Assembly: GCA_021292165.1 (NCBI GenBank)
Contig: CM037877.1
Coordinates: 85,095,691 to 85,159,690, forward strand
From: Shinisaurus crocodilurus
Taxonomy: Eukaryota; Chordata; Lepidosauria; Squamata; Shinisauridae
DNA: 64,000 nt
Direction: 5' to 3'
Shown one piece after another: positions 62,193-63,261 of this stretch. The notes beneath the pieces are model-generated. The model was given only the letters and a program-made list of their open reading frames with translations. It did not search any database and had not been told where the DNA came from. A program made the position numbers and the translations under genes. Position 1 is the first letter of the stretch. Each line of letters opens with the position of its first letter.

Positions 62193-62576
62193 GCAAAGGC
62201 AGGGCTGGATTAAGAGCATTATGGGCCTGGTGCTGAGGATTTTGGTGAGCCTTTTTATGGAAATAAATAAAATGAAGACGCAATTTTATATTAAAACAAA
62301 TTAAATATTTTAATTACCATTAAAGTGCCAAAACAGAAACATATTGAAAATATGGAGAGAATAGGAGAGAATAGGTGGGGGGTGGAGGAAAAGAGTGAGG
62401 GCATGAAAGGCGTTGTGATGCCGCCTTGGACGCTATATATACTTGGGATTTTAAAAGATAAATGGAAAAATAATAAACAAAGAAAGGGCGGTGGGAAAGC
62501 AGCCACACCGCCTCGGGAACCCAGCAGGGTGGGGCTGAGGGGCGGCAACCGAAGACTGGGAGGGGAGGCCTCTTAC

Positions 62577-62653
62577 TTGGTGAAGGCCGCGCCTAGATCG
62601 ATCACCACCGCGGTTTTCTCGCCGCCGCTCCTGAGGCCCTCGTAAAGTGGCAT
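62577..62653 (-). CDS. ACTR10: Captured first exon of ACTR10 (Arp11), partial coding
   Basis: ACTR10 is the actin-related protein Arp11 at the pointed end of dynactin. The exon encodes 25 residues starting [17 protein letters not shown] and going on to IDLGAAFT, with two bases left before the donor GTAAGAG. It differs from the human protein (as recalled) at two residues: Gly8 to Arg and Glu22 to Ala. No ACTR10 exon 2 is visible between here and FXN, and human ACTR10 lies on a different chromosome (14) from FXN (9). With the surrounding hAT ends this looks like a duplicated fragment carried by a transposon. It is probably not translated as part of a working ACTR10. Confidence 0.85.
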
Positions 62654-62830
62654 CGCAGCAGCTCCCTCCGGGAGAAGGAGAAGGGCGAGATGTTGTGGGG
62701 TGGAAAGGGAAAACGGATCCTCCCTTAAGGCCGGCGCGCGGAGCTGATTGGCTGAACGAGGCCGGCGGGGACCTTCTGTTGCTTGCCGGCGCGCGCATCC
62801 CTCATCACGAGAGCCGCCCCATCTCGCGCC
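62654..62830 (-). promoter_or_regulatory. Captured ACTR10 promoter segment with CCAAT box
   Basis: CpG-rich DNA upstream of the captured ATG. ATTGG at 62747-62751 is a CCAAT box on the minus strand, about 95 bp upstream of the start codon. No TATA box, as usual for housekeeping genes. Confidence 0.6.
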
Positions 62831-63261
62831 TGGCCCCAGGGATTATTTTGCAGGAATAAATGGCTGTTTTTTAAAGACCCTATCGATTTTTAGTATGCGT
62901 TTTATTATTGTACGCCGCCTTGAGGGTTCCTGCCCTCAAAGGCGGGCAGGAAATATAATTGATTAATTAATTAATAGAATAGGGCTCCCCACAGTTACCC
63001 TAATTTCTTGCAGCACATCTCGGCGGGGAGGGGTACATGCTCGTAGCCGGCATTGTGTGCGTGTGTGTACCTAGTGAAAATTTGGCTGCTTCCCGCGCAC
63101 TTCCTCCAGTCCCTGCCCAGCGTGGCAACCTCTGCTCGCCTCCGGCAACGCCCCGCAGGTGAGCAAGGTGAGCGCGTCCCTATATTGTGGGCCTATTTTG
63201 CGGTAGGGGCCTGGAGCTGCAGCTCCAATAGCCCCTATCTTAATCCGGCCCTGTGCAAAGG

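Follow-up and report, generated by a model that had tools for sequence, protein, structure and literature searches.

Among animals, transposons with terminal inverted repeats (TIRs) that carry a copied host fragment of known parentage (Pack-TIRs) include Pack-hAT-N8_XT in frog and Ssk-FB4 in fly; in the sections of that study used here, the multicopy cases favor high GC and, where copy number is given, comprise three to five copies with distinct target-site duplications (TSDs) (Tan et al., 2021; PMC8277862). The bat Helitron HelibatN3 carries the NUBPL promoter, six codons and a splice donor, and exon trapping was shown for it, while in Myotis lucifugus promoters of 15 genes were captured (Nat Commun 2016, PMC4778049, as far as consulted). 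In plants, Pack-TYPE elements, including maize Pack-hAT, are non-autonomous, have TIRs and contain captured genic sequence, and the main text of the source (PMC8903248) does not contain the words promoter, first exon or animals. Literature on ACTR10 in combination with transposons, searched at the level of titles and beginnings of abstracts with subscription papers mostly outside, described no such element, and no description of an ACTR10-carrying hAT family was found in it.

Here we analyzed a 64-kb stretch of the genome of Shinisaurus crocodilurus (64,000 nucleotides, hereafter the window), in which positions 62200–63253 form a 1054-bp non-autonomous hAT element. As an earlier note on this DNA had described, an exact 8-bp TSD is present: sequence comparison shows TGCAAAGG without a mismatch on either flank (62192–62199 on the left, 63254–63261 on the right). 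The TIRs, CAGGGCTGGATTAAGA at 62200–62215 on the plus strand and TCTTAATCCGGCCCTG at 63238–63253 on the minus strand, are short and begin with CAGGG, a typical start of hAT elements; the same note had given their length as 15 bp, and while the inverted repeats themselves are there, comparison of the two ends gave 16 nt with one mismatch (94% complementary). Helitrons have neither TIRs nor TSDs, and this element, which has both, is not one of them. The left end, corresponding to the 3′ side of the transposase in the family, spans 154 bp (62200–62353) and is identical to the ends of the sibling loci L033–L039, whereas the right end with its subterminal part (63115–63253) is common to the sibling L042; the last 68 bp (63186–63253) are found also in L034, L038, L039, L043 and L044. 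The window copy contains no transposase, and Rfam gave zero matches in the whole window. Elsewhere in the window, a 630-aa open frame on the minus strand (15017–16909) with an RVT_1 match (E 4.4e-36), i.e., a reverse transcriptase, probably derives from a non-LTR retrotransposon.

Between the two ends lies a segment of ACTR10 on the minus strand at 62363–63113, comprising the upstream region, the 5′ leader, the first coding exon with its splice donor and the start of intron 1; its limits were set by comparison with the two native copies described below, and are 62363–63113 by L032 and 62368–63113 by L031. The first coding exon (25 codons plus 2 nt, 62577–62653) was identified by translation, phmmer and tblastn. 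Its 25-residue peptide equals residues 1–25 of the Arp11/ACTR10 chains in the PDB (best E 5.2e-8), and the phmmer search against the PDB with E up to 1 returned three distinct sequences, all of them Arp11/ACTR10. A GTAAGAG donor directly follows the coding piece (62570–62576), and so the exon and its intact donor are as the earlier note had read them. ACTR10 exons 2 onward, which would be expected below exon 1 if this were the gene in its native place, were sought by tblastn of ACTR10 against the whole window; exon 1 alone was found, with no other stretch at E<1.

To the same note we owe the proposal that the true ACTR10 gene be located and the breakpoints of the capture determined, and both could be found. 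In a search of the whole genome with the element (2.19 Gb, 1490 contigs) 42 matches were obtained, with 40 of 1,730 candidates scored, so that all counts given below are lower bounds. Two matches at 84% identity, both on C1, proved to be ACTR10 loci. The first, L031 (C1:307872500-307882400), contains native exons 1–4, and tblastn pieces reaching the last residue lie downstream of it in L045/L046 and extend to about C1:307,889,236; the native gene is thus present from its first to its last exon on a chromosome different from that of the window element. The second, L032 (C1:310566000-310575900), is a further ACTR10 copy with exons 1–4 read, inverted, 2.69 Mb from L031 and 97–98% identical to it where compared; either the region is truly duplicated in inverted orientation or the assembly contains two haplotypes. 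The consensus of the element aligns from about position 141 to about 887–892 unbroken to the native DNA, running from the gene's upstream region through exon 1 into intron 1, so that native ACTR10 supplies the middle ~750 bp. Over 812 alignment columns with L031, 701 were identical, 30 were mismatches and 81 were gap positions, i.e., 30 of 731 aligned bases differed (4.1%). Exon 1 of the element had zero differences from L031 and two from L032.

Results of the genome search showed at least 30 copies, namely the window copy and 29 others at 95–98% identity. All 1054 positions are spanned by 29 loci (the window at 100% and 28 at 95–98%), while L030 (97%) spans positions 118–1054; a further copy lies in two pieces at C4:251.404 Mb. 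Exact 8-bp TSDs flank 26 of the 30 loci, and all 26 are different. Among the four remaining loci, L009 and L027 have TSDs with 2 mismatches, L030 is truncated, and L013 has no matching duplication. At 35 bp from the latter there is another, partial left end of this family (107 bp), and the arrangement (L041, C1:117864000-117868000, 1506–2707) is perhaps a composite or rearranged insertion. Divergence among the copies is low: the mean K2P distance to the 30-copy consensus was 0.0114 and the mean pairwise distance 0.021 (range 0–0.037). Several copies occur as near pairs with different TSDs (C2:204.37/204.42 Mb, C5:91.342/91.351 Mb, C10:15.297/15.331 Mb and C3:184.66/184.89 Mb), which suggests local hopping.

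These data bear directly on a competing reading, by which the locus would be ACTR10 in its native place or a product of ordinary segmental duplication. The exon is indeed intact and followed by its donor, as this reading would have it; however, the native gene lies on C1 with all exons from the first to the last and no later exon was detected in the window at E<1, which rules out a gene in place, and a segmental duplication is ruled out for 26 loci by their exact and different TSDs. We regard this reading as extremely improbable. The same ends, the different TSDs and the presence of native ACTR10 elsewhere instead identify the element as a true Pack-hAT that has captured the 5′ end of a host gene. 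We therefore conclude, with a probability of roughly 0.95, that the window element is a multicopy, non-autonomous Pack-hAT in which right and left hAT ends of ~140 bp and 154 bp surround a ~750-bp copy of the ACTR10 5′ end. As in Pack-TIR and Pack-TYPE elements, a host fragment that is not itself transposon DNA lies inside and its parental copy elsewhere, and the distinct TSDs around one and the same chimera attest to mobility, in line with the repeated family that the earlier note had considered.

The 154-bp left end recurred at 100% identity in seven further genome matches (L033–L039); three of these (L033, L036 and L037) represent loci that were read at greater length as L042, L043 and L044. 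Both TIRs and an exact TSD were present in L034 and L035 (1151 bp), L038 (2054 bp), L039 (3271 bp), L043 (3917 bp), L042 (4716 bp) and L044 (6319 bp). L034 (C1:320.40 Mb) and L035 (C1:319.30 Mb) are identical and share the TSD aaaatgat at a distance of 1.10 Mb; a segmental duplication or an assembly duplicate near the C1 end may account for this, and segmental duplication is accepted for this pair. In L033 we found a 792-aa stop-to-stop frame with DUF4371 (E 1.3e-22) and, in a different frame, Dimer_Tnp_hAT (E 2.3e-9), while an NCBIfam search of the transposase frame gave zero matches. L033 thus carries a hAT transposase with a disrupted frame, and no single open full-length frame was present among the transposase copies examined. 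Together with the 8-bp TSDs (26 of 30 exact), the hAT dimerization domain of siblings that share these ends places the family among hAT transposons. With the native source, the distinct TSDs and the transposase-bearing siblings in hand, the view that a hAT transposon captured the 5′ end of host ACTR10 holds.

Both junctions of the captured segment run into family sequence: at one, the native DNA is left at GGGACTGGAGG and the sequence continues as in the sibling L042 (..GTTGCCACGCTGGGC), and at the other, CACCTATTCT is followed by a 10-bp duplication and by ATATTTTCAATATG, the last part of the family. The host DNA therefore occupies the place of the family's inner part. As judged from the junctions, template switching may have produced the capture, either while an excision gap was being repaired or at a stalled fork; gap-filling and FoSTeST are capture models presented in the consulted part of PMC8277862. 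Since the divergence of the consensus from L031 (4.1%) exceeds the mean pairwise divergence of the copies (2.1%), the capture predates the burst, or the source was another allele. Once formed, the chimera was inserted by transposition, with 8-bp TSDs, at no fewer than 30 sites; it would have been amplified in trans by the transposase of siblings with the same ends, such as L033/L042.

The host upstream region, the start codon and the splice donor stand in line as in the native gene, which is also the exon-trap layout of HelibatN3. In principle, an intronic copy in the right direction, bringing a start codon and a donor, could serve as promoter and exon trap, and might start a transcript that splices the 25 codons into the host gene, in the manner of HelibatN3 and its NUBPL promoter. 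To evaluate the state of these parts, we compared 29 copies (L003 was left out): the ATG and GTAAGAG were intact in 29 of 29, and an early stop codon in exon 1 was seen in L011 only. No sign of purifying selection on the captured exon was seen, with 25 of 75 exon 1 sites variable vs. 146 of 747 across the captured segment as a whole. Transitions at CpGs of the captured part affected 156 of 3,228 base cells (4.8%) vs. 46 of 9,351 other G/C cells (0.5%), i.e., CpGs change about 10 times as often, a figure to be read in the light of the common ancestry of the copies, whose base cells are not independent events. This decay is as in methylated DNA, so that active, unmethylated copies are unsupported, and the spread of a working housekeeping promoter, which the earlier note had envisaged, is not borne out. 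Judged by their sequence, the copies look like methylated, unconstrained DNA, and most of them would later have been methylated and silenced in the germ line. The CpG decay argues against lasting promoter activity in the germ line, but not against activity early after insertion or in other tissues.

ACTR10 is one of several DNA segments found behind the conserved ~66-bp right terminus. A pattern of the right end occurred 2,707 times at ≤2 mismatches (reversed control, 0), and from 100 listed places, all on C1 and all exact matches, 28 right ends were sampled. Among the first 16, a left TIR was present within 2.7 kb in 12, with an exact TSD in 11 and a one-mismatch TSD in 1; among the other 12, a left TIR was present within 0.7 kb in five, all with an exact TSD. 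These 28 and eight earlier right ends, one of which is that of an insert inside L043, were compared over 554 bp beyond the first ~66 bp, and 14 kinds of cassette could be distinguished among the 36. The commonest, a 650–700-bp subfamily, accounted for 18 of the 28 sampled ends (L047 being assigned by 89 bp only) and is exemplified by L048; the other kinds are L034/L062/L073, L038/L072, L039/L043, ACTR10, L042, L044, L051, L055, L057, L058, L060, L061 and L071. Kinds sharing only 50–90 subterminal bp (ACTR10/L042/L044, L034/L051/L057 and L055/L071) were counted apart, and joining them gives nine groups. In the first 500 bp, 12 of 14 kinds pass thresholds of GC 0.5 and CpG o/e 0.6, the failing kinds being L051 (0.66/0.59) and L039/L043 (0.38/0.55), vs. 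25 of 480 overlapping background windows from the window and the flanks of the 29 copies. As no left end with TSD lay in the stretch read for L051, L055, L058 and L071, their cassettes could partly be the flank of a broken copy; when these are set aside, 9 of 10 kinds pass, and with the commonest cassette also left out, 8 of 9 kinds with both ends seen.

In L042, the cassette codes for an N-terminal portion of CDC50B (PDB 7vgh, E 5e-30; gene name TMEM30B), with a frame break behind it. L039 and L043 contain, as read by eye, a signal-peptide-like exon with CCACC before the ATG and a CAG/GTAAGG donor. Host origin is shown for the ACTR10 and CDC50B cassettes only, and a native locus was mapped for ACTR10 only. 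In L038, sense positions 888–993 of the cassette are a repeat present at several places of the window. LINE-like frames noted by eye in L055 and L061 were rejected, as Pfam gave no reverse-transcriptase match. Behind the right end of L058, a ~1.3-kb repeat begins at sense positions 238 and 1537, with the same frames twice and a CAG/GTAAGAG donor in each. The commonest cassette matches, beginning with its first base, a 669-bp insert of L043 (sense 618–1286), which lies on the start codon of the signal-peptide-like exon. This insert has an 8-bp duplication (CCACCATG) and ends (CAGGACCGG..CGCCGGCCCTG) of its own, and the corresponding site of L039 is uninterrupted. It is another hAT-like element and not host DNA. 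The commonest subfamily carries most of it as an insert, and its cassette was thus rejected as a host CpG island.

One reading of this diversity is that the family repeatedly swaps the promoter-proximal part of its transposase for host CpG-island promoters and first exons, and would thereby acquire new promoters again and again; captures would then run in transposase orientation, and the ACTR10 element would be a deletion derivative of one. The 14 cassettes with 12 CpG-island-like kinds are consistent with this, as are L042 and L044, in which transposase stands behind different cassettes, and the three readable coding cassettes (ACTR10, CDC50B and the signal-peptide-like exon), which all point in the transposase direction and come from a gene's front or contain a start codon. 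However, a common direction in all three carries little weight, the siblings having been chosen by an intact left end, which favors changes on the opposite side; only ACTR10 maps to a native locus, the L039/L043 cassette is not CpG-rich, that of L038 is partly a common repeat, and a simple pyrimidine-tract scan of L042 gave no splice acceptor before the transposase frame. The decay of CpGs in the ACTR10 copies as if methylated also speaks against this reading, and a GC bias of capture alone, as reported for multicopy Pack-TIRs in the consulted part of Tan et al. (2021; PMC8277862), could yield the pattern. As the commonest cassette turned out to be a transposon, we lowered our estimate for such promoter renewal, which we consider doubtful, and likewise for the broader proposal that the family lives by serial promoter theft, with each capture (ACTR10, CDC50B/TMEM30B, the signal-peptide exon and as many as ten others among the 36 right ends compared) founding a subfamily, which is marginally less likely still.

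We rather favor, with some confidence, GC-biased capture without function, in which GC-rich, open chromatin is the preferred target of template switching in repair, and CpG islands and GC-rich repeats are taken up by chance. The CpG decay and unconserved exon 1 of the ACTR10 copies agree with it, as do the GC-rich transposon that makes up the commonest cassette and the GC bias of multicopy Pack-TIRs (PMC8277862, section 12, as far as consulted). Yet, on its own it leaves unexplained why all three coding pieces that could be read point the same way.

Compared with the described systems, the element resembles animal Pack-TIRs in being a TIR element with a copied host fragment of known parent, multicopy with distinct TSDs and of high GC, and differs from the cases in the consulted sections of PMC8277862 in its copy number (at least 30 of one capture), in carrying an upstream region, a first coding exon and a donor, and in belonging to a family with many cassettes and transposase-bearing siblings. 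With HelibatN3 (PMC4778049, in part) it shares a vertebrate host, many copies, a host promoter, here a candidate by activity, N-terminal codons and a splice donor; in contrast to that rolling-circle Helitron, in which capture proceeds by 3′-end read-through, it is a cut-and-paste hAT with TIRs, 8-bp TSDs and internal replacement. The Pack-TYPE elements treated in the consulted part of PMC8903248 are likewise non-autonomous, but are those of plants. What stands out here is the unit of upstream region, exon and donor in at least 30 copies, together with a vertebrate hAT family with many, mostly CpG-rich cassettes.

Thus, by sequence, a vertebrate cut-and-paste transposon took up the whole 5′ end of a host gene and multiplied to at least 30 copies. 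If serial promoter theft were true, it would outrun silencing and scatter host start exons with intact donors genome-wide. This one genome allows two questions to be posed, namely whether GC-biased repair or the retention of captures with promoters useful to the transposon shapes the cassettes, and with what frequency host genes acquire new start exons from elements of this type.
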